Source of the DNA: Vulcanimicrobiota bacterium
GTDB lineage: Bacteria; Vulcanimicrobiota; Vulcanimicrobiia; Vulcanimicrobiales; Vulcanimicrobiaceae
Length of the DNA: 64,000 nucleotides
Direction of reading: 5' to 3'
Assembly: GCA_027452165.1 (NCBI GenBank)
Contig: DAIDGX010000022.1
Span: 1-64,000 of the forward strand
In this document: positions 12,537 to 30,051 of the stretch, in pieces
How the letters are laid out: every line of letters begins with the position of its first letter
Numbering within the stretch: position 1 is the first letter of the stretch
Notes under the pieces: model-generated
Seen by the model: the letters and a program-made list of their open reading frames with translations, nothing else
Databases searched by the model: none
What the model was told of the DNA's origin: nothing
Position numbers and translations under genes: made by a program

Positions 12537-12558
12537 GCGTGGCCCGCTCGATGGCTCC

Positions 12559-13677: not shown

Positions 13678-13735
13678 GAGTCCTGTTCGTTCGAGGTTGC
13701 CAGGTACGACATCTGCCAAACGCCGGTGTCGCGCG

Positions 13736-14605
13736 TCAACTCGCTGCGCGCAGTAAGCTCATCAGACGTTGCAACGCGCGGCCAGGTGGTTGTTTCGCGC
13801 GCGAGACGAGCCATGGGGTGAAGCGGTAGCGCGAGCCACCGACGTAGTCGAGTTCGCAAAGACTTCCACGCACGAGCTCTTTGTCAACCAGGTAGCGAGG
13901 CATCCAGCCGAAGCCCAGCCCCATCTGCAGCGCGGCGTTTTTGGCGGCGAAGTCGGAGAGATTGTACACGCGCTCGCCGCCAAACTGCTGGTCTTTGCCC
14001 ATACCTGACGAGTCCTGAACCGTCAACTCCACGTGCCGCTGCAACTCGGCAAGTGCAACGCGCGGGCGTCGCGCGAGGGGATGGTCAGCCGCGACGCAGA
14101 GCACGCACTCGATCTCCGGCAACGCCTCCACGGCAAGGCCGGGACGCGGTTCGAAATCTTTGACGAGCATCAGGTCGGCCTCGTCCATTTCGAAACGCTG
14201 CTGCACGCCGCCTAAAAATTCGACCGCCAACTGCACGCGCGTCGGAATGCCTTCCCCGGCAAGCGTTTTGAGTGAGGCGAGCATGTGATGCAGCGGCAGA
14301 ATCCCGTCGAGCACCACCTCGAGCCGTGCCTCCCAGCCCTGCGCGAACTGCCGCGCCAACGCCTCAATGCGCTGCGCGTGGTCGAGCAAGGCGCGCCCCT
14401 CCGTCACGACCGCCTCGCCCGCGGGTGTCAGCCGGATGCGGTAGCCACCGCGATCGACGAGCGCAATACCCAAGCGCGCCTCAAGCGCCTTCACCTGATA
14501 GCTCACCGCGGATTGCGTCTTCCCGAGCGACTCCGCGGCGCGCCCAAGGCTTCCGAGGCGGATCACCGCGTCCAGCGCCTCCAGGGCATCGAGTTCGAGC
14601 TTCAC
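13736..14605 (-). CDS. LysR-family transcriptional regulator
   Basis: A 289-residue LysR-type regulator. The winged HTH is at about residues 2-62 (LDALEALDAVIRLGSLGRAA, then KTQSAVSYQVKALE). The effector-binding domain follows. The GTG start at 14605 follows AAGGAG at ideal spacing. An upstream ATG (14638) would add residues with no matching ribosome-binding site. It is divergent from the 4-hydroxyphenylpyruvate dioxygenase operon, the classic arrangement for a LysR protein controlling its neighbour. The inducer could be tyrosine, hydroxyphenylpyruvate or homogentisate, but this is inference. Confidence 0.92.
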   Translation of the reverse strand: MKLELDALEALDAVIRLGSLGRAAESLGKTQSAVSYQVKALEARLGIALVDRGGYRIRLTPAGEAVVTEGRALLDHAQRIEALARQFAQGWEARLEVVLDGILPLHHMLASLKTLAGEGIPTRVQLAVEFLGGVQQRFEMDEADLMLVKDFEPRPGLAVEALPEIECVLCVAADHPLARRPRVALAELQRHVELTVQDSSGMGKDQQFGGERVYNLSDFAAKNAALQMGLGFGWMPRYLVDKELVRGSLCELDYVGGSRYRFTPWLVSRAKQPPGRALQRLMSLLRAAS

Positions 14606-14679
14606 CGTAAACTCCTTGAAAAAAATCGATGATGACATGCGATTTTCTCCGCTTTTCTTGATTGTTCCGCTGGACTACA

Positions 14680-14696
14680 GTAGGCCTAGCACCTAC
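14680..14696. promoter_or_regulatory. Candidate LysR operator dyad
   Basis: A perfect 5-base dyad, GTAGG-N7-CCTAC, sits between the divergent LysR gene and the dioxygenase gene, about 17 bases upstream of the latter's start. LysR proteins usually bind imperfect dyads of about 15 bases. The position so close to the ribosome-binding site is more fitting for repression or autoregulation than for activation. Only the symmetry is seen; binding is inferred. Confidence 0.35.
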
Positions 14697-14712
14697 CCGA
14701 AGGAGCGGTCAC

Positions 14713-15747
14713 GTGAGCACTTCCAACCCGTTGAACCTGCGCGGCATCGAGTTCACCGAATTCTGCGGACCCACGACGGGCCGGATCGAGGAGCTTTTGT
14801 GCGCATTCGGGTTCTCGCGGACGCGCCGCCATCCGCATAAAGCGATCGACGTGCTGCAGCAAAACGACATCCACATGCTGCTGAACGCCGAGCGTGCAGG
14901 GCACGCCGCGAGCTTTGCGCAGGCGCACGGACCGTCGATGTCTTCGATGGGATGGCGTGTTGATGATGCGGCGTTCGCGCGCGACGAAGCGGTGCGGCGT
15001 GGAGCGCGTCCGGCAGATCCCAAGGCGTGCGATCTTCCCTATCCCGCCATCTACGGCATCGGTGAGAGCCTCATCTACTTCATCGAACGCTTCGGCGAAC
15101 GGGGGACGATCTGGGAGAACGACTTCGCGCTCGCCGAGACGCCGCGCATCGAAAACGAGAAGGGCTTTCTGCGCGTCGATCACCTTACCAACAACGTCCC
15201 GGCCGGGCACATGCAGCGGTGGGCCGACTTTTACAAGCACATTTTCGGCTTTACCGAGGTGCGTTATTTCGATATCAGCGGGGTAAAGACGGGCCTCACC
15301 TCGTACGCGCTGCGTTCGCCTGATGGGAGCTTCTGCATCCCGATCAACGAACCGAAATCCGATAAGGATCAAATCGCCGAATACCTGCGCGAATATAACG
15401 GCCCGGGCGTGCAGCACATCGCCTTCCTTACACGCGATATCCTCAACTCGCTCGATCGTCTGCAGGGCAGTGGCATCCAGACGCTCGCCATCGACGACGA
15501 GTACTATGCCGACGTTTTTGCGCGGGTTCCGGGCGTCAAGGAAGATCGCGGGCGCATCCGCGCGCACAACGTGCTGCTCGACGGCGACGAGAACGGGTAT
15601 CTTTTGCAGATATTTACGAAAAACCTGATCGGCCCGATTTTCATCGAGATCATCCAGCGCGAGAACAACCTCTCGTTCGGCGAGGGCAACTTCGGCGCGC
15701 TCTTCCGCAGCATCGAAAAAGACCAAGAACTGCGCGGGGTGCTCTAA
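14713..15747 (+). CDS. hpd: 4-hydroxyphenylpyruvate dioxygenase
   Basis: A 344-residue two-VOC-domain non-heme Fe(II) enzyme that turns 4-hydroxyphenylpyruvate into homogentisate in tyrosine breakdown. The three iron ligands are in place: H157 (RVDHLTNNV), H235 (VQHIAFLT) and E312 (FIEIIQR). The length matches bacterial members. The GTG start follows GAAGGAG. It is divergent from the LysR regulator and two bases before another VOC-fold gene. No homogentisate dioxygenase, maleylacetoacetate isomerase or fumarylacetoacetase lies in the window, so the rest of the pathway must be elsewhere, or homogentisate has another use (pigment, quinone). Confidence 0.95.
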   Translation: MSTSNPLNLRGIEFTEFCGPTTGRIEELLCAFGFSRTRRHPHKAIDVLQQNDIHMLLNAERAGHAASFAQAHGPSMSSMGWRVDDAAFARDEAVRRGARPADPKACDLPYPAIYGIGESLIYFIERFGERGTIWENDFALAETPRIENEKGFLRVDHLTNNVPAGHMQRWADFYKHIFGFTEVRYFDISGVKTGLTSYALRSPDGSFCIPINEPKSDKDQIAEYLREYNGPGVQHIAFLTRDILNSLDRLQGSGIQTLAIDDEYYADVFARVPGVKEDRGRIRAHNVLLDGDENGYLLQIFTKNLIGPIFIEIIQRENNLSFGEGNFGALFRSIEKDQELRGVL

Positions 15748-15749
15748 CA

Positions 15750-16304
15750 ATGCTGCAAGGTATCCATCACGTCGCCTATCGTTGCCGCGATGCGCGGGAG
15801 ACCGTCGAATTCTACAAAGAGACGCTTGGTATGGCGTTTTTGCTCGCCATCTCCGAAGATCGCGTGCCCTCAACCAAAGAGCCCGATCCCTACATGCACG
15901 TGTTTCTCGACGCCGGTAACGGCAATGTGCTCGCCTTCTTCGAAATTCCGAACTCGCCGCCCATGGGCCGGGATCCAAACACGCCCGCATGGGTGCAACA
16001 CATCGCCTTCAAGGTTGACGATGTCGCGACGCTCGAGCGCGTAAAGCAACGCCTCGAAGCGCGCGGCCTTGCGGTGCTCGGCCCCGTCAATCACGAGATA
16101 TTCCAATCGATCTACTTCCACGACCCAAACGGTCATCGCATCGAACTCGCGGCAAATACCGCGGTTCCCAGCGTGCTCGAACGTTTGCATGCGATCGCGC
16201 CCGAGATGCTCGCCGAGTGGACGCAGAAGAAGAGCACCGTTCGTCAGGCCGCCTGGCTGCACGAACACGAATTCGCAAACGAGCGCACCGCGGTAGCTCC
16301 CTAG
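15750..16304 (+). CDS. VOC-family dioxygenase/glyoxalase-like protein
   Basis: A 184-residue vicinal-oxygen-chelate protein. Two beta-alpha-beta-beta-beta halves are visible. Likely metal ligands are the His of GIHHVAYRC, the His of VQHIAFKV and the Glu of GHRIELAA. It starts two bases after the dioxygenase stop, so the two are clearly co-transcribed. It may be a ring-cleavage or isomerase-type enzyme acting on a product of hydroxyphenylpyruvate metabolism. The exact reaction cannot be read. The C-terminal 40 residues are a helical extension. Confidence 0.82.
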   Translation: MLQGIHHVAYRCRDARETVEFYKETLGMAFLLAISEDRVPSTKEPDPYMHVFLDAGNGNVLAFFEIPNSPPMGRDPNTPAWVQHIAFKVDDVATLERVKQRLEARGLAVLGPVNHEIFQSIYFHDPNGHRIELAANTAVPSVLERLHAIAPEMLAEWTQKKSTVRQAAWLHEHEFANERTAVAP

Positions 16305-16312
16305 TGCGCGAG

Positions 16313-16331
16313 GGCGGCCATGAATGCCGCC
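16313..16331 (+). terminator. Hairpin after the hpd operon
   Basis: GGCGGC and GCCGCC form a perfect 6-base stem around a 7-base loop, starting 8 bases after the stop of the VOC gene. There is no clear T-run after it (it is followed by TCGTCATATATA), so it may be a weak intrinsic terminator or just protect the 3' end. Confidence 0.4.
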
Positions 16332-16623
16332 TCGTCATATATATGCATTCTGTCACTCTGGTTGCCGAGACGCGGTTGCGATTTTACGCGCATTCGCGCA
16401 GGGGCTTCTTTGTGTTGTCAGAACTAGCAAAGAGCGGTATCGCTTAACGCATACAATCGTGGCGATGACGCGCAAAAACATCGCGGATCTCAGGTGTGGG
16501 CATTCGGAATAAGCTAGCAGTGCATATGCTCGGCTCGTCTCGTCTCTAATTCTCCATTGGGTTCGTAAGTGGACGCGCGTATTCGATACGTTTGTTTACT
16601 CGACTTTCAACAAGGAGTTCTTC
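16332..16623 (+). promoter_or_regulatory. Leader and promoter region of the peptide operon
   Basis: About 290 bases without a convincing gene, less GC-rich than the surroundings. It precedes the small peptide gene and must hold that operon's promoter. One weak candidate is TTGGGT (16557-16562) and TATTCG (16580-16585), spaced 17 bases. Another is TTGTCA (16415-16420) with a poor -10 at about 16438. The last bases carry AAGGAG seven bases before the peptide ATG. The extra length leaves room for regulation, but no repeat or clear operator is seen. Confidence 0.4.
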
Positions 16624-16758
16624 ATGTTTTCAAGCCTTCAAGCAAACGTTGTTGACCTTCCCGAGCAGACCGAAAATTTCTCGGCGGATGCCGTCCAGGA
16701 AGCCGACTGGGCCTGTCTCTTCGGCAGCGGCTGGGCCGTCTGCATGGCTAAGAGCTAG
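16624..16758 (+). CDS. Small peptide gene, candidate RiPP precursor
   Basis: A 44-residue open reading frame with ATG preceded by AAGGAG at seven bases, the best ribosome-binding site in the area. Residues 1-28 are polar and acidic (VVDLPEQTE, SADAVQEAD), like a RiPP leader. The C-terminus reads DWACLFGSGWAVCMAKS. It is hydrophobic and has two tryptophans and two cysteines in a near-repeat, W-A-C and W-A-V-C, around LFGSG. There is no GG cleavage site. It is followed by three unassigned proteins, two ABC transporters and a peptidase, which is what one expects around a modified exported peptide. It could also be a bacteriocin or signal peptide closed by one disulfide. Identification as a RiPP precursor is inference from size, composition and context. 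Confidence 0.7.
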   Translation: MFSSLQANVVDLPEQTENFSADAVQEADWACLFGSGWAVCMAKS

Positions 16759-16915
16759 CCTAACAGGGATCAACGCCAGGGGCGTCCGCGTTATCGGCAA
16801 GGAGCTCGTGCCGATCTACGATGGAGGCTATATGGGCGGCGGCCTTTCGCGCATCGCGCGCCAAGGTCGTCGCCTCTCTCTCCGTGTTTGCACATCAACT
16901 AGGTAACGTGGGACA
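16759..16915 (+). other. Spacer between peptide gene and operon, with hairpin and mini-ORF
   Basis: A 157-base spacer. A short stem ACGCC/GGCGT (16773-16777 and 16781-16785) lies just after the peptide stop. It could act as an attenuator or 3' stabiliser that lets the peptide be made in excess over the downstream proteins. A 24-codon frame, ATG 16832 to stop 16906, has GGAGG four bases before its ATG. It encodes a very basic peptide (MGGGLSRIARQ at the start, one Cys). Neither is proven to work. Confidence 0.3.
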
Positions 16916-17818
16916 GTGGATATTTGGGGTGGTATCTATGACGACGGTCTCTCGTGGCTCGTCGCGAATCTGGAGCGTTTCAATCCACAATCTGACGGGC
17001 AGAGCGACTGGAAGTTGTCAGGGAAAGCCTTTGGTGAATTGGTTTTTCTGCTCGGCAACCTCCGTAAGCGCCGTATGGTACTTGCGCCGGCACTGCAGCG
17101 TCTGAACGCCTTTGCCGAAAAATGCCTTCAGGCGTTCGACTGGCAAGCCGCGTTTAGCTACTATCATAACGTCCCGCTTCTGATCGGCTATGCAGCTGAC
17201 TTCGAGCGCAACGGGGGAGCCGGCGATTCACTTGCGGCCGTGCATGCGCGTTCGTGGTTCAAAACGTCACGGGTCGCATGTGTTGACTACACGCCGTTTC
17301 GGCGTGCCGACCTCGCATATAACGGGTATTTGGTCAATGCGAATATCGACGACAATGCTCTGAGCGATGCATTGCAGCGAACCGTGCTTTTTCGGGATGA
17401 CGCTGCGGTGTATTTTTCCTGGCGCGAGATGTATGCGTTCACGCACGCCGTCTTTTACCTTACCGATTTTGGCCTGCGTCCAGCGCTCGAATTGGCAAGT
17501 AACGACGCGGTGGCTGCAATGCAACGCACAACTAGGCTTTGCCTTGCGGTGGCTTGTCGCGAAGGCGATCTCGATCTTGTTGCCGAGCTCTTGCTCTGCA
17601 CCGCCTTCCTGAATTGCGGTCATTGTGCTATTACGGACGCCGCAGCGCGCCTGTTGCTCGAGAATCGTCTCGCATGCGGAGCGTTTACCGCGAGCATCAC
17701 GGAGCTTGCGCGTGTCAGCGACTGGACCGACGAGGAGCGCTGGAAGCGATGTTATCATACCACCCTCGTCGCAACGTTATTAGCTGCTGTTCAAACTGAA
17801 AGGCGACAGGTGGCATGA
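16916..17818 (+). CDS. Unassigned helical protein, peptide operon gene 1
   Basis: A 300-residue protein with no signal peptide or membrane helix, predicted all-alpha. I do not recognise it with confidence. Visible features are a possible conserved core THAVFYLTDFG (176-186) and a late YHTTLV (280-285). There is also a YYHNVP near residue 82 and a Cys-rich patch LLLCTAFLNCGHC (226-238). The TH-x-x-F-Y-L-[ST]-D-F-G and YHTTLV pair reminds me of a group of uncharacterised actinobacterial proteins (possibly DUF6895), but this is from memory. GTG 16916 is the first usable start after an in-frame stop at 16904. Its ATGA junction with the next gene ties it to the operon. It is a candidate peptide-modifying or leader-binding protein. 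Confidence 0.75.
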   Translation: MDIWGGIYDDGLSWLVANLERFNPQSDGQSDWKLSGKAFGELVFLLGNLRKRRMVLAPALQRLNAFAEKCLQAFDWQAAFSYYHNVPLLIGYAADFERNGGAGDSLAAVHARSWFKTSRVACVDYTPFRRADLAYNGYLVNANIDDNALSDALQRTVLFRDDAAVYFSWREMYAFTHAVFYLTDFGLRPALELASNDAVAAMQRTTRLCLAVACREGDLDLVAELLLCTAFLNCGHCAITDAAARLLLENRLACGAFTASITELARVSDWTDEERWKRCYHTTLVATLLAAVQTERRQVA

Positions 17819-18519
17819 GCTCTACGATCGCTCCGCTGCGCTCGTCGGACTGGGACGCGTTGACAACGGCGCTCAATCTCATGAACATTGGCACGCATCG
17901 ATACAACCCTCCCCGGGATCTCGTCATGCTGGTCACCGCGGTCGTCGAAGAGCATCTTGAGGCGTTCGTCGCGTGCTCACCGCTTGCGTACGCCGAGGCG
18001 CTCATCGTGCTGCGATTCCTCGAGCAGTCCGGAGCGCAGTTGTCCGCACCAAAGACCTGGTGGCGGAAGAAGATCTCGCTTGCTCGCCGGTTTTGCGGCG
18101 AGGTATCCGGGCCCGAGTTTCTTGCTGCCAATGCTTATGCCCATATTTTCGGAATCGAGATAGATGCCGATCGTTACGTGGCGGAACTCGAGAATCTTGC
18201 GATCGCTCATCCATTGTGGCTCTCGCGCCATACCGGTACAGAACGCCAAGTGCGCGATCTTATCGCTGTCGTTACCGCTCTCCGGTGCGGGCCGCACGTG
18301 CGGTGCGAGCCTGTGAGTGCGATCGTGCCGCTGGCTCGTAATGTGCTCTTCGCGGACGCCGTGGCAGCCGGTCGCCGGGAAGATATGCTGTTGCTAGCTG
18401 CGCTACCGGACGACATCGCCGGTAAGCTCATCGGTGCTATTCCATTAACGGTACGCGAGCCTGAAAATCAGTACGAACAGCTTTTGATGTCATGCGTGTC
18501 GCAGGAACTGGGAGTCTAG
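17815..18519 (+). CDS. Unassigned helical protein, peptide operon gene 2
   Basis: A 234-residue soluble protein, predicted alpha-helical, unlike anything I can name. There is no catalytic signature, no Cys pair and no transmembrane segment. Aromatic and basic residues cluster at KTWWRKK (about 80-86), a possible contact surface. The helix-rich, Ala/Leu/Glu-rich make-up is similar in style to the proteins on either side, so the three may be distant relatives or partners in one complex. Its ATG overlaps the stop of gene 1 by four bases, and the next gene starts two bases after its stop. Confidence 0.72.
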   Translation: MSSTIAPLRSSDWDALTTALNLMNIGTHRYNPPRDLVMLVTAVVEEHLEAFVACSPLAYAEALIVLRFLEQSGAQLSAPKTWWRKKISLARRFCGEVSGPEFLAANAYAHIFGIEIDADRYVAELENLAIAHPLWLSRHTGTERQVRDLIAVVTALRCGPHVRCEPVSAIVPLARNVLFADAVAAGRREDMLLLAALPDDIAGKLIGAIPLTVREPENQYEQLLMSCVSQELGV

Positions 18520-18520
18520 A

Positions 18521-19288
18521 GTGAATCACCTTGATCGAGAAAAGGACGCGGCGCGCGACCGAGCCTTCGAGTGGCTGATGCAACTGCCCGATATCTTTCC
18601 GGAGTGCGATCTACCCTCGAACGCGCTTTGGCTGCTCGGACTCCGACTCGCGTCGGGAGACTCCGGCCGACCGACATACCCTTACGCGGACCGCGTTCAA
18701 CCTGCGATGCGCGCAGCCCCGAATACGTTACTTGCAGCGGAACTCGCGGCAACATATGGGGATGCGATTAACAACGCCGTTGCATCGCCGTTGATCGAAA
18801 TTGCAGAGCGCTGCACCCCAGAGGACCTCCTCTACCCTACCGGGCTTGAGGTACGCGTGCAATTGGCGCGTGTGGCCGCGTGTCCGTTTCCTTCCCCGTC
18901 GGAGTGGGCGTCGTGGCATCCCCCCGCGATAGCTGAACTCTGGGAACGTGGGTCGGAGGCGCTTGTTGCAACAGCTCGTTGGTACGCAGCAAGTTTCATG
19001 TACGACGAGCGCGCGAGCGGGTACGGCGAAGTGCTTGCCGGGGCGATGCTGAGTGCATGCCGCCGTTATGACATTGGACTCGCCGCGGACATCCGAAAGG
19101 CTCTTTCTGGGGTCGCGGAGCTGAGGCCGGCATGTGGCTACGTCGATGAATTTTTTCTGATGCAGGGGTCGTTCACCGGCTATTTTGGACACGTGAACCC
19201 ATTCAAGCCGAATAATGAAGATCCTCAAAGCCGTGACATCGCACGACGTCTTCCTATGACCGTCGCCATTTTGAGGGCTTGGAAGTGA
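18521..19288 (+). CDS. Unassigned helical protein, peptide operon gene 3
   Basis: A 255-residue soluble protein that I cannot assign. It is helical in the middle and ends with an aromatic, glycine-containing segment (FFLMQGSFTGYFGHVNPF, about 214-231). The start is GTG 18521, one base after the preceding stop. Its TGA overlaps the GTG of the ABC exporter (GTGA). Three consecutive unknown genes between a peptide gene and its exporter are the obvious candidates for the modification machinery. However, no SAM, ATP, flavin or metal site is visible in this one. Confidence 0.72.
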   Translation: MNHLDREKDAARDRAFEWLMQLPDIFPECDLPSNALWLLGLRLASGDSGRPTYPYADRVQPAMRAAPNTLLAAELAATYGDAINNAVASPLIEIAERCTPEDLLYPTGLEVRVQLARVAACPFPSPSEWASWHPPAIAELWERGSEALVATARWYAASFMYDERASGYGEVLAGAMLSACRRYDIGLAADIRKALSGVAELRPACGYVDEFFLMQGSFTGYFGHVNPFKPNNEDPQSRDIARRLPMTVAILRAWK

Positions 19289-21030
19289 AACGTATCGCCA
19301 TAGCGATGGACGCGCTCGGAAACCAGAAAATATGGCTCGTGTGTTCGACCGTCATCGCGCTCATGATGGGCATCGGATTCGTCGCGATCCCGGCGCTCCT
19401 CGCTCCGCCCATGCAGATGTTTCTGACGGGATCGCGTTCAGATCAGCTTTTTGCCCTACGGGAAGCTGCGGAGATACTGGGCATCATTGTTGTGGTGCAG
19501 AGCATTTTGAGTGCGACACAACAGTATTTAATTTCGATTACCGGCGAAATGGTCACATTGCGCTTGCGCAGCCGTCTTTTGCGTACGCTATTGACGTTAC
19601 CAATGAGTCGCCTTGCTGCATTTCAGATCGGTGACGTTGCCTCGCGTTGGAGCGGCGACATCGGCTTGGTTCAAAGCTTCGCGACGACGAAAGTCATCGG
19701 CCTCATTCGCTACTCCGGGCAGTTCCTCGTCGCGCTCGCCTTCATGATGACGCTCGAATGGCGCGGAACCTTGATCGCGCTGTGTGCCTCGGCGTGCACG
19801 CTCGTTCTCGTCAATCTTGCGATGCGGTATCTTTCGAGCCAAACCGTGAGACTTCAAGAGCTTCGTGCGGGCGCGCTATCGCTCGTGGCAGAGGCGCTCC
19901 GAAACGCGCTCTTCATTAAGATTGCGGTAAAACAGGAAGCGGTTTCGGCGAAGGTCGATGTGGAACTCCGTAGCGCGTACCGAAAAGCACGAGAAATTGC
20001 GGTCGCTCAGGGGATCGTTGGACAGGCCATCAACGTCGTCGGCATGGCGGTCTTTGGCGCATTACTTTGGTATGAAGCGCAGCGCGTGATCAGCGGCGAG
20101 CTTGCGGTGACGGCCATTACGACGTACTGCTTCGCCATCATCCTGATGGGGACGGCGGCGACACAGATTGCGATGCTTCTTAGCTCGTTGAGACAAGGGC
20201 TCGCGGGTTTGACCCGGGTAGCAACGATTCTTGCCATCCCGCCTGAGGCGAGCGGGGGCGCTGCTGGCTTGGATCTTGGAGATGGTTCCATCGAAGTCGT
20301 CGAGGTTAGCGTTCGCTATCCGGGTGCGGCGCGCGATGCCCTGGACGAGATATCGCTCTCAATTCCCTGCGGAAGTTTCGTCGTGCTGCTTGGACCTAGT
20401 GGTGGTGGAAAGTCGAGTTTGTTGAATACGCTCTGCCGAGCCGTCTCCCCAACCTGCGGGCACATTGCCGTGGGTGGGCGGCCGATCGAGTCGTACGATC
20501 TCGATGCATATCGTCGAAACATCGGATACATGCCCGACGACCCCTACCTTTTTAACGGCACCTTGCGAGAAAATTTGCGTTTTTTCACGCCCGGCGCGAG
20601 CGACGAGTCGTTGATCGGCGTGCTCGAGCGTGCGAGCGCCGGCGATCTTTTGGATCGCCTTGCGGGAGGTCTCGACGGTGAAATCGGCCCAGGCGGAGCG
20701 CGTCTTTCGCGTGGAGAGCGACAGCGCGTTGCGATTGCGCGCCTGTTACTCGCCGATCCCGCCATTGCCATATTGGATGAACCAACGGCATCACTCGACG
20801 CGATGAACGAAAACGCGGTGCGTAACGCGTTGAGTACCCTGCGAAAGGGGCGTACGATGATTCTCGCTACCCACCAGACTCTCTTAGCGCGCGATGCGGA
20901 TGTGGTTGCCGTAATTGCTAATGGAAGAATCGTGGAATCAGGAACGTTCGACGCGCTACGGCAAAGCGGGGGCGTCCTTGCCGCAATGGAAACGTTACAA
21001 CGTGCGGGCGCGATGCCGGTGGGAGTGTGA
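19285..21030 (+). CDS. ABC exporter, fused membrane domain and ATPase
   Basis: A 581-residue half-transporter of the type IV exporter (ABCB/MsbA-like) class. It has six predicted membrane helices in about residues 10-310. The ATPase follows, with Walker A GPSGGGKS (370-377), signature LSRGE (474-478) and Walker B AIAILDEP (493-500). There is no N-terminal C39 peptidase domain, unlike classic bacteriocin exporters, so the leader must be removed by another enzyme. GTG 19285 is preferred over TTG 19279, because GAGGG is seven bases upstream and the GTG overlaps the previous stop. It is likely to form a homodimer and export the peptide. Confidence 0.92.
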   Translation: MKRIAIAMDALGNQKIWLVCSTVIALMMGIGFVAIPALLAPPMQMFLTGSRSDQLFALREAAEILGIIVVVQSILSATQQYLISITGEMVTLRLRSRLLRTLLTLPMSRLAAFQIGDVASRWSGDIGLVQSFATTKVIGLIRYSGQFLVALAFMMTLEWRGTLIALCASACTLVLVNLAMRYLSSQTVRLQELRAGALSLVAEALRNALFIKIAVKQEAVSAKVDVELRSAYRKAREIAVAQGIVGQAINVVGMAVFGALLWYEAQRVISGELAVTAITTYCFAIILMGTAATQIAMLLSSLRQGLAGLTRVATILAIPPEASGGAAGLDLGDGSIEVVEVSVRYPGAARDALDEISLSIPCGSFVVLLGPSGGGKSSLLNTLCRAVSPTCGHIAVGGRPIESYDLDAYRRNIGYMPDDPYLFNGTLRENLRFFTPGASDESLIGVLERASAGDLLDRLAGGLDGEIGPGGARLSRGERQRVAIARLLLADPAIAILDEPTASLDAMNENAVRNALSTLRKGRTMILATHQTLLARDADVVAVIANGRIVESGTFDALRQSGGVLAAMETLQRAGAMPVGV

Positions 21031-21033
21031 GTC

Positions 21034-21732
21034 ATGCTTGAATGTGCGGATTTGTCGATGACGTATGGCGGTAACGGTGGAGTCCGCCGTCTGTCATGGA
21101 GCTTTGCGCCGGGTGTAACCGGCCTTTTGGGTCATAACGGAAGCGGAAAAACCACGCTCTTGAAACTTCTCGCGACGGTATTCGATCGTTACGACGGCGC
21201 GATTCGCTGGCAAGGTGTGGACGTTCGAGGTGACCGAAACGCATATCGTGCGGTAATGTCGTACGTACCGCAGCAATTCGGGGTCTATCCGCATCTGAGC
21301 GCCATGGAATTTCTTCGCTATTTAGGTGGATTGCGCGGTATGAACGGGCGCGCGTGCGCCACTCGAGCCGCGGCACTTCTGGAACGCATGGCACTCGGCG
21401 CGCATGCGCATCGTCAATTGCGCACTTACAGCGGGGGTATGCTCAAGCGTTTGGGCCTTTGCGCCGCGCTCATAGGAGATCCACGCGTGCTCTTGCTCGA
21501 CGAGCCAACCGCGGGCGTTGACGAACGGGAACGCAAGAACATGATCGATGCCGCGCGCGAAAATTCTGAGCGCGTCGTCATTCTTGCAACGCATATCTAC
21601 TCCGACCTTGCAGTCCCGAACGCCAAGTTTCTCGTGCTCGACGCGGGAACGGTATCCCGCAGCGGCAACGCGACGGAGCTCTCGACCGCTATACGCGAGT
21701 CAACGTCAACGCCGGTCTTGTGGGAGCGATGA
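21034..21732 (+). CDS. ABC transporter ATP-binding protein
   Basis: A 232-residue ABC ATPase. It has Walker A GHNGSGKT (33-40), the Q-loop VPQQFGVYPHLS, signature YSGGM (132-136), Walker B LLLDEP (153-158) and the switch histidine in LATHI. The resemblance is to ATPases of ABC-2/bacitracin-type peptide export or immunity systems. It starts three bases after the fused exporter. Its stop overlaps the start of the permease gene, which is its natural partner. Confidence 0.92.
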   Translation: MLECADLSMTYGGNGGVRRLSWSFAPGVTGLLGHNGSGKTTLLKLLATVFDRYDGAIRWQGVDVRGDRNAYRAVMSYVPQQFGVYPHLSAMEFLRYLGGLRGMNGRACATRAAALLERMALGAHAHRQLRTYSGGMLKRLGLCAALIGDPRVLLLDEPTAGVDERERKNMIDAARENSERVVILATHIYSDLAVPNAKFLVLDAGTVSRSGNATELSTAIRESTSTPVLWER

Positions 21733-23222
21733 TGCAGCCGATCGTCGCAATGGTCGCTGCGGAGTTGCGCAACCGCTCCCGGGAAGCATCGACGTACGTG
21801 ATGCTCCTTTTTGTAGCGGTGGTTTCGGCACTCGTGCTTCCCACGCCAAACGCGCCGTATGCGACGTTGACGGCTGGTGGCCATCGCGTGTTGCTCGCTT
21901 CGCCGACGGCAGGTGCCCTCGCCGGTGTCTTGACGGTCGTTTTCCTGGCGCTGGTGACGCTCGTACTGCTGGCACAGAGCGTGTATCTCGATCGCTTACC
22001 TTTCGGCGTAGGGACGTGGTTGCGTACGTCGCCCGCATCGAACGTCCAACTCCTCGTGGCCCGTTGGATATCCGGGACGCTCTACGTGGAGTCGCTCGTG
22101 TTCGTGTGTGGTGTGGTGGCGCTCGTTACCTCCGCGTTTCACGGCATCGGTCAGAATCCGGCCGCCTTTCTCCGTTCGTATGCGGTCGTCTCGCTTGCTC
22201 TCGGCCCCATGGCTGCGGGCGTTGGTCTGCTGATCGATAACGTTGCGGGCCGTCATCAGTGGTTGCGCGGAACGCTCGTTGCGGTGTGCTGGCTTGGCGC
22301 GCTCGCGCTCGGTGCGATTCCCGGCGGTCATTTGCCGGATCCACTCTCGCTCAACGAATTGAGCGATGTGGCCGCCGTAAGCCTCGGTCACCATGGCCTC
22401 ACGTTCGGGATCACACCGAACCCCGGTGGCAAAGCGCTTCTCTGGAGCACTTTTCCGATCTCGTATCGTGCTGTCGCGAACCAAGTGCTCCTCGCCGCGT
22501 CTGGGATCGTCGCATTGCTGTCTTCGCTCGCCATTTTTTCGCGTTTTGCTCCCTTGGATGGTGAACCTCAGGATAGCCGGCGTCCCCGTAAGACGCTCTT
22601 CCCCACCCTCGAGCTTCCTGGCGCGATGCGGCCACTGTGGCTCTCACGGGTGGGCGCGGAACTTCGGCTGATGCTGGTGCTCGACCGCGGCCTGCTCGCG
22701 AGCGCCGCTCTTGCAGCACTTGGGACCGGGTTGGTCTTCTCCGGAATGATCCGGATTGGCGAAGCGCTCTTGCTGCTGCTTCCGCTTGTGTTCGCCGGTC
22801 GCATCACGCTATGCGAACGCGCGGAAGGCACAGGCGGCATCTTTGCGCAGTTCCCGGCGTACGTTGCACAATATACGTCGTGGAAATCTGCCGCGATCAT
22901 CAGCGCGACGCTGCTCTTTCAACTCCCTCTTATCGTGATGTGGCATGATCGGGCGCATCTGCTCGGTCTTGCCGTCGGTGATATCGTGCTCTCGGTTGCG
23001 CTCGTATCGGCAGCAAATTGGTTCTCGTCGAGTTTGATCGCAACAATCCTTGTCGGAATCTGGTGGTACCTCTTCGCGCTTAACCAGTCGCCCGACGTCA
23101 TGGACCCAGCAAATCTCAGCACGGCAATGCATCCTGTACTCTTGGCGGCATATCTCGCGGTGGCGGTGTCGCTTTCGTTCGTGCCGATTCGCGCCGAGCG
23201 GACGGGAGACGCACGCGCGTGA
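21729..23222 (+). CDS. ABC transporter permease, about 500 residues
   Basis: A roughly 498-residue membrane protein with some ten to twelve hydrophobic segments, in two halves separated by a polar loop near residues 265-300 (EPQDSRRPRK). The pattern fits an ABC-2-type permease of double length. ATG 21729 overlaps the ATPase stop (ATGA); ATG 21732 is equally possible. Together with the ATPase it forms a second transporter in the operon, perhaps for producer immunity or for a different step of export. Confidence 0.85.
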   Translation: MMQPIVAMVAAELRNRSREASTYVMLLFVAVVSALVLPTPNAPYATLTAGGHRVLLASPTAGALAGVLTVVFLALVTLVLLAQSVYLDRLPFGVGTWLRTSPASNVQLLVARWISGTLYVESLVFVCGVVALVTSAFHGIGQNPAAFLRSYAVVSLALGPMAAGVGLLIDNVAGRHQWLRGTLVAVCWLGALALGAIPGGHLPDPLSLNELSDVAAVSLGHHGLTFGITPNPGGKALLWSTFPISYRAVANQVLLAASGIVALLSSLAIFSRFAPLDGEPQDSRRPRKTLFPTLELPGAMRPLWLSRVGAELRLMLVLDRGLLASAALAALGTGLVFSGMIRIGEALLLLLPLVFAGRITLCERAEGTGGIFAQFPAYVAQYTSWKSAAIISATLLFQLPLIVMWHDRAHLLGLAVGDIVLSVALVSAANWFSSSLIATILVGIWWYLFALNQSPDVMDPANLSTAMHPVLLAAYLAVAVSLSFVPIRAERTGDARA

Positions 23223-25876
23223 GTCGCTCGGGTATTGTCGCGGCGCTCATCCTTCTTGCCGGTACGATTGGCCTGATCGCGCTCTTCTATCCGCATGCCG
23301 GACAATTGGGTGGCGCGGTACAGGTTGTCGTACGCCAGCGGCACCCGGTGACCGAGACGCTCTCGAACGGATTGCGAATCGCCGTCTTGCGCGAGAGCGG
23401 ACTCCCGCGCGTGCACGTGATGCTCTCATACGACGTGGGATCCGGCATCCTCGACCGCGCCCATGCGGGTACGGCGCATGCTCTCGAACACATGATGTTC
23501 GAGGGGACCACCGATGTGCCCGCAGCGACGCTGCGCCGGGCGATTGCGCGCGTCGGCGGCGCTATGAACGCCTATACCGACGAGGACGAGACGCGCTACA
23601 CGCTCGATGGGCCGAGCTCCGATCTGCAGATGCTCTTACACGTTGAAGCCGATCGCATGATGAACGCGACGTTTGCGCCCGATGCCTGGCGCATGGAGCG
23701 CCGCGCGATCGTCAGTGAGCTTGATCAACGTACGCCCGTCCAAGTGCTCCTCGCGCGCGCACGGCGCGCCGCCTTCGCCGGGCCTGCCGGAGCCTCGCCG
23801 CTCGGCACGTCGCAGGGCGTGGGTCGCCTTCATGTGAGCGGAATTCGCGCTGCGTACGAGCGGTGGTACACGCCGAGCAACGCGATCTTAACGGTCGTCG
23901 GTAATGTCCCGCCCCACGTCGTCTTCGCCGAAGCGCAATCGCTCTTCACCGGCGCGAAGCACGGCGCACGTGCCCCAGCTATTGCGAGGCCGGTCTTGAG
24001 TGCGTCGTGGGTGCCTCCAACAGTGCAGCAGATCATGGGCGAGCGGTCGCAAAAAGACACCCTCCTCGACGTCGCGTTTGCGGTTCCTGGCGCGTTCGAC
24101 CGGCGCTTCGTTGACAGTGAGCTGCTCGCGCGAGTCCTCGCGGCGACGCCTGGCCCGCTGACCTCACTCATGACCTTTGGGCACGTTCGTTCCCTGCGCG
24201 TGATTCCCGATCTCGACTCGGCAGGCGGACTCATCCACGTGGTGGTCACGGTCCGGCGCGGCGAAAGTGTTTCGACGGTTGAACGCATTATCGTGCATAA
24301 CGTGCGGCATGTGGGCTCGTTTGCGTTGCTCGACTCCACGGTTGCCTTTGCACGTGCTGCGCTCTATCACGACTTCATCGTCAGCGAAGACGACCCGGAC
24401 GCTTCGGCGCGTGAGATCGATCGCGAGCTACGCTCACGCTCGCACGGCTCGCCGAGCGAGCGCATTGCCGCCGCATCGAAGAGTGCGCTCGTGCACTTCA
24501 TCGCGAGTGACGCCGTGATCCCACGTGCCGCGGTTGTCATTATAGGAAACAAACATCCGCTTGCGCCGCAGGCCACCCTACCAGAACGTTCCGAGGCAGA
24601 TGCGACGCTCATTCATGGAACGTCGCCGGTACAGAGGCCTCCGGCCTGGATTTGGCCGCGCGCCGGCGCTGTCGCGTCGTCCGCGATCTTCGACCACGCA
24701 TCGTTCGTGCTCGCAAACGGTCTGCACGTCACGTATATCCGTGAACGCGGACTCCAGGGGTTCTATCTACGGGGGTTTATCCAAGGTTGGTCGTCGCTGC
24801 AGACCGGTGAGACAGCGATGCAACAAGAAGCGGCCGGGCTTGCGCTCGCGCACGGTGGCGTACCGGCAAACGATCGCGTCGTCCACGACGCGCTCACCCA
24901 CGACGCTGTCGATCTCGTTCTTGGACCATCATTTTCCGCAGACGGACCGCAGCAGTCGTTTCGCGCCGCATGTTTTACGCTCGCAAAGGCGTTGCGTCCG
25001 CGCGTACCACGTGGATTTGCTGCGATGGTCCGACTCGCCATGGCCGCTCATCGGAGCGAGCCATCGGCGGCGCAGGCGCGTGCGGCATTTCTTTCGGCGC
25101 TACTCTCCGATGAGGCACGGGTGCGCACGCCTCCCGCATCGCAGGCGCTCACGCAAGGAACGATCGCAGGCTACCTTGCCGAGCATCTGCGCCCCCACCT
25201 CACCGATGTCGTTATCGTTGCCGACCTCTCGAAGCGGCACGTTGCGGGCATCCTTGCCGGATCGTTCGGCCGTTGGCCGGTCTCGCATCGAGCGTTCATC
25301 GACGATGAACGTCCGATCGGATCCTGGAAACCGGTGCAGCGAAACCTTACGAGCACCTCACGTCTCGCAGAGGTGGTCATGGGGCAGCCACTTCCGAGCA
25401 TGCGCGATGCTCGATATCCCTCGCTCGTGATGCTCAACGAAGTACTTGGTGGAGATGTCGATTCCCGTTTAGTGCGTGAGATGCGATATCAGCGCGGAAT
25501 CTCCACGCGCATACAGAGCCGTTATGTGGCCGATCAGAAGCGCGGCTATCTCGTCGTCATCGCATTATGCAAGCCGAGTGAGACAGCGACCGTCGAGCGC
25601 GCTGTCATCGCGCAAATGCGCGGGTTGCAGCGTCGCGCAGTTGGGCAAGCCACGCTGCGCCTGGCACGCGCGGCGATCGAGGGGCGCGCCCTTCTCAGGG
25701 ACAGCGATCCAGCGCAGCTCGCGTACGCGACGCTACGCGCGGAGGTTGCCTCGGGCGGGGTGCTTTTGACCGCGGCGCCGTCTTTTCGTCATGTATCCGC
25801 CGCGAGCGTCCTGCGTGCCGCATCTCTATTGGACCCGAGCCGCCTGATCGAGATTCGAGCAGAACCCACAACGTAG
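23219..25876 (+). CDS. Membrane-anchored double M16 metallopeptidase
   Basis: An 885-residue protein. Residues 5-24 form a single membrane anchor or uncleaved signal, so the peptidase domains lie outside the cytoplasmic membrane. The first M16 unit has the inverted zinc motif HALEH (H87, E90, H91) and the distal ligand E167 in VSELDQR, the expected 76 residues on. It therefore looks active. The second unit (about 470-885) keeps the fold pattern (FVLANGLHVTYI, GGDVDSRLVREMR) but not the zinc motif. This is the usual active/inactive pair. GTG 23219 overlaps the permease stop. It is the best candidate for trimming the exported peptide. Confidence 0.9.
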   Translation: MSRSGIVAALILLAGTIGLIALFYPHAGQLGGAVQVVVRQRHPVTETLSNGLRIAVLRESGLPRVHVMLSYDVGSGILDRAHAGTAHALEHMMFEGTTDVPAATLRRAIARVGGAMNAYTDEDETRYTLDGPSSDLQMLLHVEADRMMNATFAPDAWRMERRAIVSELDQRTPVQVLLARARRAAFAGPAGASPLGTSQGVGRLHVSGIRAAYERWYTPSNAILTVVGNVPPHVVFAEAQSLFTGAKHGARAPAIARPVLSASWVPPTVQQIMGERSQKDTLLDVAFAVPGAFDRRFVDSELLARVLAATPGPLTSLMTFGHVRSLRVIPDLDSAGGLIHVVVTVRRGESVSTVERIIVHNVRHVGSFALLDSTVAFARAALYHDFIVSEDDPDASAREIDRELRSRSHGSPSERIAAASKSALVHFIASDAVIPRAAVVIIGNKHPLAPQATLPERSEADATLIHGTSPVQRPPAWIWPRAGAVASSAIFDHASFVLANGLHVTYIRERGLQGFYLRGFIQGWSSLQTGETAMQQEAAGLALAHGGVPANDRVVHDALTHDAVDLVLGPSFSADGPQQSFRAACFTLAKALRPRVPRGFAAMVRLAMAAHRSEPSAAQARAAFLSALLSDEARVRTPPASQALTQGTIAGYLAEHLRPHLTDVVIVADLSKRHVAGILAGSFGRWPVSHRAFIDDERPIGSWKPVQRNLTSTSRLAEVVMGQPLPSMRDARYPSLVMLNEVLGGDVDSRLVREMRYQRGISTRIQSRYVADQKRGYLVVIALCKPSETATVERAVIAQMRGLQRRAVGQATLRLARAAIEGRALLRDSDPAQLAYATLRAEVASGGVLLTAAPSFRHVSAASVLRAASLLDPSRLIEIRAEPTT

Positions 25877-25912
25877 AACCGGCACGCTGCTCATGCCATC
25901 GGCTGCGCGAAC

Positions 25913-26758
25913 ATGAATTTGCCGGCCGATAACCATGCTATGCGATGCAGCGCCGTAACGATGCTCATGGTTGTGTCCCTCGCGGCCTGCGGCGCCGGTG
26001 GGGCCCCCCTGGTCTCACCATCGCTTGCGCCAAGCATGCAGCCGATTGCCTCCGCGGGTCCTACGCCCAACGTTCTTTCGGTGCCGTCGAACCCCGGCGC
26101 ATCGAGCGTCCAGTTCGCGGGCTATTCCTGGAGCGTGCGATCCGACTACGGCGGCCCCGGCCCAAACCAGTTTAGTGCAAACAACGTCTGGGTCGATGCG
26201 AACGGCTTTCTTCACCTCACGATCGCCGACGTCAACGGTACCTGGACCACCGCGGAGGTGGTGATGAATCAAAGCCTGGGCTTCGGCGCGTACCAGTTTC
26301 AGGTGGTCGGTCATCCCGAAACCATGAATAACAACGTTGTGCTCGGCCTCTTCACCTATCCGCCCGCGAGTGTCGGCCCCGATGGAACGAACGAAATCGA
26401 TATCGAGTTTGCCACGTGGGGCGGCGCGCAGACGCAGCACGGCAATTGGACCGTCTGGCCCGCGATTGCCGGGCCGGGGCAGAATACGCTTGCCTTCGAC
26501 GCATCCGCAAATTCCGGGCTTAGCACCCACCGCTTTACCTGGACGAGCCGCTCGGTGACGTTTCAAGACATGAGCGGTTTGACCGACGGAACGAATGGCA
26601 TGTACGCCTCGTGGACCTTCGCGCCGCCCAACTATCTCCAACTCGTGCCGCAGACGCCGGTTCCCGTGCATATGAATCTTTGGCTCTTCGGAGGGCCGCC
26701 CACCGACGGCAAGCCGGTGGAGATCGTTATTTCGGGGTTTTCATTTACTCCCGGATAG
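25913..26758 (+). CDS. GH16-like lipoprotein glycosidase
   Basis: A 281-residue predicted lipoprotein with lipobox SLAAC (Cys26) and a Pro/Ser-rich linker. The rest is a beta-jelly-roll with the family GH16 catalytic motif E161-I-D-I-E165. Such enzymes cut beta-1,3/1,4-glucans, agar or similar polysaccharides. The substrate-deciding loops cannot be judged here. A short N-terminal stretch before the basic residues suggests that ATG 25940 may be the true start. It lies 36 bases after the peptidase gene but has no apparent link to it. Confidence 0.82.
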   Translation: MNLPADNHAMRCSAVTMLMVVSLAACGAGGAPLVSPSLAPSMQPIASAGPTPNVLSVPSNPGASSVQFAGYSWSVRSDYGGPGPNQFSANNVWVDANGFLHLTIADVNGTWTTAEVVMNQSLGFGAYQFQVVGHPETMNNNVVLGLFTYPPASVGPDGTNEIDIEFATWGGAQTQHGNWTVWPAIAGPGQNTLAFDASANSGLSTHRFTWTSRSVTFQDMSGLTDGTNGMYASWTFAPPNYLQLVPQTPVPVHMNLWLFGGPPTDGKPVEIVISGFSFTPG

Positions 26759-26760
26759 TG

Positions 26761-28182
26761 CTATCGGCGTGTCGGGCGGAGTACGACGACCGTGCCGAAG
26801 CGGCACGCAATGGCGTATCGTCCGGCGCGAACGGCGGCATCGAGCCGCGGGATGAGCACGGTATCGACGTAGCCGTTGCGCCAATCCGTCGCATAGACGA
26901 TATAGCCGGGGAAGCGCGCGACGCCGTTGTCGATGTTCGTCGAGTGCGGATAGGCGAGCGCGACGTGCGCGAACCATTGATCGTGTGTATCGAGCGGCGC
27001 GTCGTGCGGAACGCACGCGAGCGCACGTAGCGCGTTGGCCGTATGTTGATAGGGTTCGGCACGCAAATAGTGCAACGGATGCATCGGATTAAACGCCACG
27101 AGTACGATGCCGGTGATCGAGAGTGCGTTGGTCCACCACCGTCGCGCGACCTGCTCGCCGCGCGAGCGCGCCATATGCACGAGCGCCCACGCCGCGGCAA
27201 GCACCAGCCACGGTGCCCACAAGAGCGAGTAGTGAAAGCCCATGCGCCAGACGATTGAACTGCTCGCCAGCAGGACGCCGGCAAAGCCGGGAAGCGCGAG
27301 CCACGTCCAACGCGTCAAAAACGGCAAAAACGCAAGCGGTGCAAACGCTTCGAGCAGATAGGTGAACCGGCCGAAGGTGATCACCGCATGGGCGAGCTCG
27401 AGGGGATGCGTGAAGGCCGAAAGCGCCGTCTGCACCGGGCCGTGCGCGAACGGATAGTCGTAGAAGTGTGATGGCGCCCAGCCGCCCGCACGCGGAACCA
27501 CGATGAAAAAATAGACGAGTAGCGTTGTTAGCGAGAGTGCGGCGAGGCCAAAACCGGCAATTGTCAGTCGCTCGGGTTCGATCGGCTCGCCCGCAAGCAA
27601 CCCCGCGCCGTCAGTGCGCCGCCGCACGATTCCGAAGATACCGAGCACGATGCCGATCACCACGAGATCCACGCACACATCTTCGCGAATGAGTACAAGC
27701 GCAAGGGAGAAGAGCGCAAACCATCCCCATCGGGCGCGATCCGCCGCCCACACGAGCGCGAGCGCCAGCAGCGGGTAGAACGCCAGTTCGTGAAACTCCT
27801 CAAACGCAACCGAGAGCAGCGGCGGATAGATCAGCGCGAGAATCCCCACGCGTGTCGCCCACCTCTCGCCCGCATACGTGCGCACGATCGCGGCGAGCGG
27901 CACGGCGCAGAGCGCGATCAACACCACCTGCACGATCTGCAGTGCGAAAGGCGAACGGGTGATCGCCACCACGGGCCAGAGCACGGCAAGTATCGGCGAC
28001 CAGTGGAAGCGGAAATGCGTCCCCCCCTCGGGCCCGTCGGTGAAGCCGTGGAACGCATGGAGGACGATCTGCGCGAACGTGCCCGTGTCGGTACCGAAAC
28101 TCCACACGTTCCACCGGACGATCTCGAGCGCGCTCATCGCGGCGATCACGATCGCTACGGCGAAGGCAAGACGGGTACGCAT
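26761..28182 (-). CDS. DUF2079-type polytopic membrane protein
   Basis: A 473-residue integral membrane protein with about ten or more hydrophobic helices. The pattern fits the DUF2079 family, which is distantly like GT-C glycosyltransferases. An acidic residue pair in the first loop (FGTDTGTFAQ) and conserved His/Trp segments (HFRFHWSPI, EEFHELAFYP) match the family as I know it. The C-terminal 110 residues are soluble. ATG 28182 was chosen because it begins a clean first helix. The frame extends upstream but overlaps the divergent symporter. Its role is unknown, possibly lipid-linked sugar transfer. Confidence 0.78.
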   Translation of the reverse strand: MRTRLAFAVAIVIAAMSALEIVRWNVWSFGTDTGTFAQIVLHAFHGFTDGPEGGTHFRFHWSPILAVLWPVVAITRSPFALQIVQVVLIALCAVPLAAIVRTYAGERWATRVGILALIYPPLLSVAFEEFHELAFYPLLALALVWAADRARWGWFALFSLALVLIREDVCVDLVVIGIVLGIFGIVRRRTDGAGLLAGEPIEPERLTIAGFGLAALSLTTLLVYFFIVVPRAGGWAPSHFYDYPFAHGPVQTALSAFTHPLELAHAVITFGRFTYLLEAFAPLAFLPFLTRWTWLALPGFAGVLLASSSIVWRMGFHYSLLWAPWLVLAAAWALVHMARSRGEQVARRWWTNALSITGIVLVAFNPMHPLHYLRAEPYQHTANALRALACVPHDAPLDTHDQWFAHVALAYPHSTNIDNGVARFPGYIVYATDWRNGYVDTVLIPRLDAAVRAGRYAIACRFGTVVVLRPTRR

Positions 28183-28257
28183 GGGCGCCTCATTCGGCGC
28201 GGGCCGTTGTGCCCCCGCACGGGGCGACGCGCGACGTTTCGCGAAACGGCATGCCTC

Positions 28258-30051
28258 ATGCACCTGACGCGCCTCGACTGGATCATCATCGTCGTTTCGC
28301 TCGGTATCACGTTCCTGCCCGCGATCTTTCTCGCGCGGCGCGCCGGACGCAATACCGCGGAGTTCTTCGCGGCGGGGCGCCAAGCGCCGTGGTGGCTGAT
28401 CGGTATCTCGCTCGTCGCGACGACCTTCTCCACCGATACGCCGAACCTCGTGACCAACTTCGTTCGAACCGGAGGGGTGGCGGCGAACTGGCAGTGGTGG
28501 GCGTTCCTGCTCACCGGCATGGCGACGGTGTTTTTCTACGCACGGCTCTGGCGCCGCAGCGGCGTGCTCACCGACCTCGAGTTCTACGAATTGCGCTACG
28601 CGGGGAAAGCCGCCGCGTTCGTGCGCGGCTTTCGCTCGATCTACCTCGGCCTATTCTTCAACGTCATGATCATCGCAACGGTCAATCTTGCCGCCGCAAA
28701 GATCGCAAGCGTGCTCTTCGGGTTGCCCGAGGTCGTTACGCTCGGCGTTGCGGGCGGTGTGGTGATCGTCTTCGCCGCCACGGCCGGGCTCTGGGGCGTC
28801 ATGATGACCGACACGATCCAGTTCGTCATCACGATGTCGAGCGCGTTCGCTGCCGCATATTACGCTTTGCACGCACCGCAGGTCGCAAAGCTGGGCGGGC
28901 TCGCAGGACTCTTTGCCGCCGTGCGCGCCGCGCACCCGCACATCCTCGACATCTTGCCGAACTTCGCAAATTGGCCGGCGGCGCTAAGCCTGTTCATCAT
29001 CCCGCTCACGATCCAATGGTGGTCGGTGTGGTATCCCGGAGCCGAGCCCGGCGGCGGAAGCTACGTGGCGCAACGCATGCTTTCCGCGCGTCGTGAGAGC
29101 GATTCCGTGTGGGGAACGATGCTCTTCCAGATCACCTTTTTCGCGCTGCGTCCGTGGCCGTGGATCATCGTCGCCATCGCCTCGCTCGTCGTCTATCCCA
29201 CGCTCGGCGCCATTCATCAGGCGTTCCCTGCCGTGCAAACGAATCTGATTGGTGACGATATCGCGTATCCCGCGATGCTCGTCTTTCTTCCAACAGGCTG
29301 GGCTGGGTTCATGGTCGCAGGCCTCTTTGCCGCGTATCGCTCTACCGTCGAATCGCACTTGAACTGGGGTACGTCGTACCTCGTGCACGATTTTTACCGC
29401 AGGTTTTTCAAACCGGAAGCGAGCGAGAAACACTACGTGCTGATCGGACGCATCGTGACGGCGCTCTTGATGATCGTCGCGATTTGCTTCACCTTCGTGC
29501 TCGATACCGCGAAAGACGCGTTCAACCTGATGCTCGATGTCGGCGCGGGCACGGGGCTCATCTATTTGTTGCGGTGGTACTGGTGGCGTATCAACGCGTG
29601 GACTGAAGTGAGCGCGATGGTCGCGTCGTTTGCCGTCTCGCTTGGGATATTCATGATTGGAAGGGCCGGCCATCCGCTCGATCCGTCGCTCGCGTTGATC
29701 GCGACGGTTGCGATCACGACGGTCGTATGGGTGACCGTCACGCTCGTCACCCCGCCAGTCGATGAGACCACGCTCGTGCGTTTTTACGAGGCCGTGCGCC
29801 CAGCCGGAGCCGGTTGGGCGCGAGTGCGCGCGCGCAGCGGGTGCGCACCGTCGCCCGATAGCTTGCCGAATGCGCTGCTTGGATGGGCGCTCGGCGTCAC
29901 CACCGTGTACGCGGCGCTCTTTGGAACGGGCGCGTACTTGTACGGCAATCGAGTGCAGGGCGCGATCGCCACGTGCATTTTTGTTGCGGCTGCGCTTGGC
30001 TTGGTGCGCATCGTGCGTCTCATGAAGCCGGGACCCGAAGAGGTTGCCTAG
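28258..30051 (+). CDS. Sodium/solute symporter (SSS family)
   Basis: A 597-residue transporter of the SSS family (LeuT fold) with about 13-14 membrane helices. Typical features are LDWIIIVVSL at the start and EFFAAGRQAPWWLIG, the family's helix 1-2 region. Others are STDTPNLVTNFVRTGG and QWWSVWYPGAEPGGGSYVAQRML. The substrate is unknown; sugars, amino acids or organic acids are all possible. ATG 28258 starts the first helix. The divergent membrane protein begins 75 bases away. Its stop directly abuts the start of the next gene. Confidence 0.88.
   Translation: MHLTRLDWIIIVVSLGITFLPAIFLARRAGRNTAEFFAAGRQAPWWLIGISLVATTFSTDTPNLVTNFVRTGGVAANWQWWAFLLTGMATVFFYARLWRRSGVLTDLEFYELRYAGKAAAFVRGFRSIYLGLFFNVMIIATVNLAAAKIASVLFGLPEVVTLGVAGGVVIVFAATAGLWGVMMTDTIQFVITMSSAFAAAYYALHAPQVAKLGGLAGLFAAVRAAHPHILDILPNFANWPAALSLFIIPLTIQWWSVWYPGAEPGGGSYVAQRMLSARRESDSVWGTMLFQITFFALRPWPWIIVAIASLVVYPTLGAIHQAFPAVQTNLIGDDIAYPAMLVFLPTGWAGFMVAGLFAAYRSTVESHLNWGTSYLVHDFYRRFFKPEASEKHYVLIGRIVTALLMIVAICFTFVLDTAKDAFNLMLDVGAGTGLIYLLRWYWWRINAWTEVSAMVASFAVSLGIFMIGRAGHPLDPSLALIATVAITTVVWVTVTLVTPPVDETTLVRFYEAVRPAGAGWARVRARSGCAPSPDSLPNALLGWALGVTTVYAALFGTGAYLYGNRVQGAIATCIFVAAALGLVRIVRLMKPGPEEVA

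Follow-up and report, generated by a model that had tools for sequence, protein, structure and literature searches.

We analyzed a 64,000-nucleotide stretch of DNA (the window) from a member of Eremiobacterota, an uncultured phylum, and the eight-gene cassette that it carries is very probably a RiPP biosynthesis and export cassette. A DUF6895 protein, together with two partner proteins, appears to be the defining maturase and is most likely a radical-SAM-free peptide epimerase. All ORFs were present as the initial annotation had described them, as were the AAGGAG ribosome-binding site before the 44-codon ORF and the tight gene coupling from position 16916 on. The features are as follows.

16612..16617, plus strand: AAGGAG, ribosome-binding site for the peptide gene, six bases upstream of the ATG
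16624..16758, plus strand: precursor peptide gene, 44 aa (ORF; homologous frame in a second genome, G124)
16916..17818, plus strand: DUF6895 protein (PF21836), alpha/alpha toroid, putative peptide epimerase/maturase (Pfam, predicted structure, 26-member alignment)
17815..18519, plus strand: partner protein 1, 234 aa, without a Pfam family (weak profile similarity to DUF6895)
18521..19288, plus strand: partner protein 2, 255 aa (homologous to the DUF6895 partner domain of Kitasatospora, Streptomyces and Pseudalkalibacillus)
19279..21030, plus strand: ABC exporter, a single chain with membrane and ATPase domains, without a C39 peptidase (Pfam/NCBIfam)
21034..21732, plus strand: ABC ATPase, DrrA-like (Pfam/NCBIfam)
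21720..23222, plus strand: membrane protein that pairs with the ATPase, ABC-2-like permease as judged by its position, without a Pfam family
23219..25876, plus strand: M16 peptidase with an N-terminal hydrophobic anchor and the HxxEH motif (HALEH) (Pfam, motif)

The gene at 17815 overlaps its predecessor by 4 bases, the gene at 18521 starts 1 base past the preceding gene, the ABC ATPase gene (21034) starts 3 bases past the exporter gene and the M16 gene (23219) again overlaps by 4 bases. The exporter could start at GTG 19285 with a 4-base overlap (GTGA) or alternatively at TTG 19279 with a 10-base overlap; the membrane protein could start at ATG 21729 with a 4-base overlap (ATGA) or at the upstream GTG 21720 with a 13-base overlap. 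An Rfam scan of 15500-27000 gave no match, and promoter and terminator scans gave counts that were not above those of shuffles.

Pfam and NCBIfam scans detected none of the class-defining enzymes of lanthipeptides, YcaO products, graspetides or sactipeptides/ranthipeptides in the operon, and the lasso leader peptidase B and asparagine-synthetase-like cyclase C were absent from all eight proteins. Likewise, no radical SAM domain was found in the operon by the Pfam scan. Weak NCBIfam matches to lanti_SCO0268 (E 0.12) and daptide_123 (E 0.021) were below the cut-off and were taken as chance. In agreement with the initial annotation, these results leave the three non-transport proteins as the likely machinery for modification. 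It had also regarded all three as unknown, which did not hold; the first of them belongs to the Pfam family DUF6895 (PF21836), which it matched over its full length (E 2.8e-44; 152.1 bits compared with a curated cut-off of 23.8).

The predicted structure of the DUF6895 protein was an alpha/alpha toroid (pLDDT 75, pTM 0.80). The nearest solved folds, with Z of 14 to 16, were those of GH105 hydrolases, cellobiose and N-acylglucosamine 2-epimerases and squalene-hopene-type cyclases; the toroid fold matched at Z of ~16, with sugar 2-epimerases among many toroids. A Foldseek search with the model gave no significant E-value (best, 0.048), and a search of the PDB gave no sequence relatives of DUF6895. 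The toroid fold serves many chemistries, including those of glycosidases, terpene cyclases and LanC-like cyclases; therefore, function cannot be read from the fold alone. Across 26 aligned members, W14, E41, H177, G186, D220, E224, G255 and H281 were invariant, and Y173, T176, R129, Y280 and D184 were nearly invariant. The two invariant histidines would suit a two-base proton transfer. A DUF6895 protein, distant from that of the window, is called a lasso-peptide epimerase in the title of a paper (Shi et al., ACS Catal 2026; title cited in PMC13352647), and on the basis of this title we lean slightly toward epimerization as the reaction in this operon.

Partner 2 was similar over its length to the Kitasatospora, Streptomyces and Pseudalkalibacillus partner domains, with an HHalign score of 43.9 compared with 12.7 when reversed and 22.3 for the best of 40 shuffles. 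In this set, the domain is either fused to DUF6895, as in Kitasatospora, or encoded after it. Partner 1 matched no Pfam family and its predicted structure was unusable (pLDDT 42); it showed a weak match to the DUF6895 profile (30.3 compared with a maximum of 19.1 in 40 shuffles) and is perhaps a distant DUF6895 paralogue. These profile matches suggest that at least one, and perhaps both, of the partners are companions of the toroid enzyme.

The precursor, MFSSLQANVVDLPEQTENFSADAVQEADWACLFGSGWAVCMAKS (44 aa), can be divided into a leader, MFSSLQANVVDLPEQTENFSADAVQEADW, and a variable core, ACLFGSGWAVCMAKS, with a putative border between them. Because 241 ORFs of at least 30 aa overlap 12000-31000, the length of 44 codons alone is no evidence, and it is conservation that counts. 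A DUF6895 search of 149 genomes in the phylum gave six over the cut-off, the window's own genome included. Genome G124 (contig JAQBPK010000190.1, Candidatus Eremiobacterota RYN_345) contains all eight genes in identical order, and its operon proteins are 33 to 45% identical to those of the window over the aligned parts; the whole operon was found in these two genomes only. A contig search for relatives of A1 returned G124 itself as the sole match. The G124 contig begins within the peptide gene (..APGASENFSLDALQDPDWYVIGGSSVILIVREA), and at its end (L014:1-60) some 15 residues of the M16 protein occur a second time, which is probably an assembly artefact. ENFSxDAxQxxDW is common to the two peptides, and the tails after this motif differ. 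Their Smith-Waterman score was 65, compared with a maximum of 37 in 500 shuffles, and five codons of the conserved leader differ synonymously only (window/G124: GAA/GAG, AAT/AAC, GAT/GAC, GCC/GCG and GAC/GAT). The homologous frame at the same place and the synonymous-only differences in leader codons indicate that the 44-codon ORF is above chance. In both copies, a short precursor with a conserved leader and a variable core lies beside the maturases, which is consistent with the pattern of RiPP precursors as judged from two sequences and a short leader alignment. The initial annotation had named a related operon lacking the peptide gene as a refuting case; the G124 operon retains the gene, which supports the reading of the locus as a peptide operon that brings along genes for maturation and export.

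DUF6895 was associated with short peptide genes across phyla. In Kitasatospora cathayae, a 65-aa peptide is followed by a single protein in which DUF6895 is fused to a second domain, and in Pseudalkalibacillus, an 86-aa peptide is followed by DUF6895 and then by a 215-aa partner. Similar loci were found in Streptomyces NBC_01243, NBC_00857, S. fungicidicus and Kitasatospora fiedleri, with Streptomyces plasmids among the loci. The leader L..SG[IL]....TT..QL was common to the peptides of K. cathayae, NBC_01243 and Pseudalkalibacillus, and none of 500 shuffles scored as high. Minimal two-gene systems, consisting of a peptide gene and a fused DUF6895-partner gene (L022:13720-15749 and L038:8569-10695; Kitasatospora and Streptomyces plasmids), were located near polyketide synthase genes. 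DUF6895 was present in 170 of 393 sampled Streptomyces genomes, mostly as two adjacent copies, and a short peptide ending in LLLSPPTPRPKKG or a near variant was found at 29 of the 30 best-scoring Streptomyces loci, which, as top scorers, are not an unbiased sample. At L051-L055 and L073-L101, we observed a peptide DGVFRDSRECAALAL....LLLSPPTPRPKKG, a helical protein of ~235 aa and two DUF6895 genes, with a serine hydrolase in several. The Streptomyces protein X showed no profile similarity to partner 1 or partner 2, and we found no description of this widespread tandem locus in the literature. On a Cupriavidus oxalaticus plasmid (L035:8069-9867), an unannotated DUF6895 is preceded by a 164-aa protein and a 125-aa ORF, a possible betaproteobacterial case.

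Within Eremiobacterota, G121 and G125 form the sister clade to the window and G124 with moderate support (83/88). Both encode DUF6895 beside a squalene-cyclase-like protein and a radical SAM/SPASM protein that is most similar to peptide maturases, and the G125 locus additionally contains JmjC proteins and an ABC exporter. JmjC, glycosyltransferase and ABC exporter genes vary between the two clusters (L016:7335-18169 in G125 and L015:6727-13479 in G121), and no precursor gene was found directly before DUF6895 in either. At the loci of distant DUF6895 members in other phyla (G246, G275 and G371), no peptide gene or RiPP enzyme was seen; therefore, the family as a whole is not solely RiPP and appears to have non-RiPP branches. 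Among distant DUF6895-like proteins (L028, L029 and L030), one had a signal-peptide-like N terminus, and no RiPP enzyme was seen nearby.

The Pfam scan detected no C39 peptidase domain in the ABC exporter. Relatives of the ABC ATPase and membrane-protein pair occur elsewhere in the phylum without DUF6895 nearby, indicating that this ABC-2 pair is a common pair recruited here; as its relatives stand in unrelated places, it was rejected as a marker of the system. In G097, a genome of the same genus, flanks ~80% identical to window positions 13760-16281 and 28259-29973 enclose an unrelated 7.4 kb. The operon is accessory and occupies a variable site (16281-28259). The G+C content was 0.56 to 0.60 over 16000-21000, whereas most of the flanking DNA had values of 0.62 to 0.67.

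Because Ser, Thr and Cys are mostly unconserved between the window and G124 cores, a type of crosslink is hard to name. This weighs against a RiPP operon with another core chemistry performed by DUF6895 and its partners, such as cyclization or crosslinking in the manner of LanC-like or terpene cyclases. We consider such chemistry unlikely, although the toroid matches terpene cyclases as well as epimerases, the two additional partners suggest more than one reaction and precursor types differ widely between phyla; epimerization is the only activity reported for the family, as far as the title cited in PMC13352647 indicates. Export of an unmodified core is improbable. In that case, DUF6895 and its partners would be leader-binding chaperones or immunity proteins, and the M16 peptidase and ABC exporter alone would mature the peptide, with an optional disulfide between the two cysteines of the window's core. 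These export and peptidase parts could indeed suffice for maturation; however, no cysteine occurs in the G124 peptide, as far as the partial gene on the contig covers it, or in some Streptomyces precursors (L095 and L096), and the invariant charged and His residues of DUF6895 across phyla resemble an active site. Disulfide-only maturation, an alternative raised in the initial annotation, was rejected as unlikely because the G124 tail differs and does not keep the cysteines. Finally, chance short ORFs are common and relatives of the ABC-2 pair occur in genomes with no DUF6895 close by, but a spurious ORF or regulatory leader in an operon for another export task is highly improbable, given the conserved G124 peptide frame with its synonymous changes and the ties of DUF6895 to peptide genes elsewhere.

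Epimerization by the DUF6895 protein is the reading that we prefer. We infer its site and the residues that catalyze it, as well as the immunity function and whether export or cleavage comes first, and we place both the reaction on the core and the full mechanism at slightly better than an even chance. The conserved leader, ENFSADAVQEADW, would be the recognition element of the 44-aa precursor, and the DUF6895 protein, aided by both partners, would invert at least one alpha-carbon in the core after Trp29, probably by a two-base proton transfer via His177 and His281, both of which are invariant. Export of the modified peptide would fall to the one-chain ABC exporter and removal of the leader to the membrane-anchored M16 peptidase, and the ABC-2 pair would give self-protection or further export.

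RiPP clusters and DUF6895 epimerases are already known; what is new is a cassette in which DUF6895 and its companions are the only candidate maturase. We tentatively propose, at a little less than an even chance, a RiPP class over Eremiobacterota, Actinomycetota and Bacillota in which a DUF6895 toroid with a companion makes D-residue peptides without radical SAM, or performs chemistry new for the fold. D-residues are rare in ribosomal peptides, and the best-studied bacterial cases, YydG and PoyD, are radical SAM enzymes (PMC5808125). If our proposal is true, a DUF6895 cassette that needs no radical SAM enzyme would offer a simple way to install D-residues. DUF6895 may also serve as a genome-mining handle, as it usually lies beside a conserved short peptide gene in the examined loci, and the operon would point to a peptide product predicted for an uncultured phylum, together with an enzyme that can be tested.

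Several known systems resemble the operon in part. The lasso-peptide epimerase of Shi et al. (PMC13352647), judged by its title, shares its Pfam family with the first maturase, whereas this operon has no lasso leader peptidase or cyclase and has two partners and an M16 peptidase. The epipeptide YydF/EpeX operon yydFGHIJ of Bacillus subtilis, like this one, combines a short precursor, a single epimerase, a membrane peptidase and an ABC ATPase with a permease (PMC7026026, PMC5808125). Its epimerase is a radical SAM enzyme, whereas this operon encodes no radical SAM protein. The precursor showed no significant similarity to YydF: 420 of 1000 shuffles scored equally high, although such short peptides can diverge past detection, and there was no NCBIfam match to a YydF-like precursor. 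In the YydF sequence used for this comparison, the positions of V36 and I44 agree with PMC5808125. MslH, the epimerase of the lasso peptide MS-271 (PMC10406935), resembles the DUF6895 candidate in being a RiPP peptide epimerase without radical SAM; however, it is metal-dependent and belongs to another family, and the first maturase matches DUF6895 only. The class V lanthipeptide cluster of cacaoidin (PMC8068269) also contains an M16 peptidase and an ABC transporter, whereas no protein of this operon matched lanthipeptide enzymes. Finally, the Streptomyces tandem loci resemble the operon in that a helical protein and DUF6895 are encoded after a short precursor, whereas they have an unrelated core, two DUF6895 copies and, in several, a serine hydrolase; if they prove to be of the same kind, these systems would form a class of their own.
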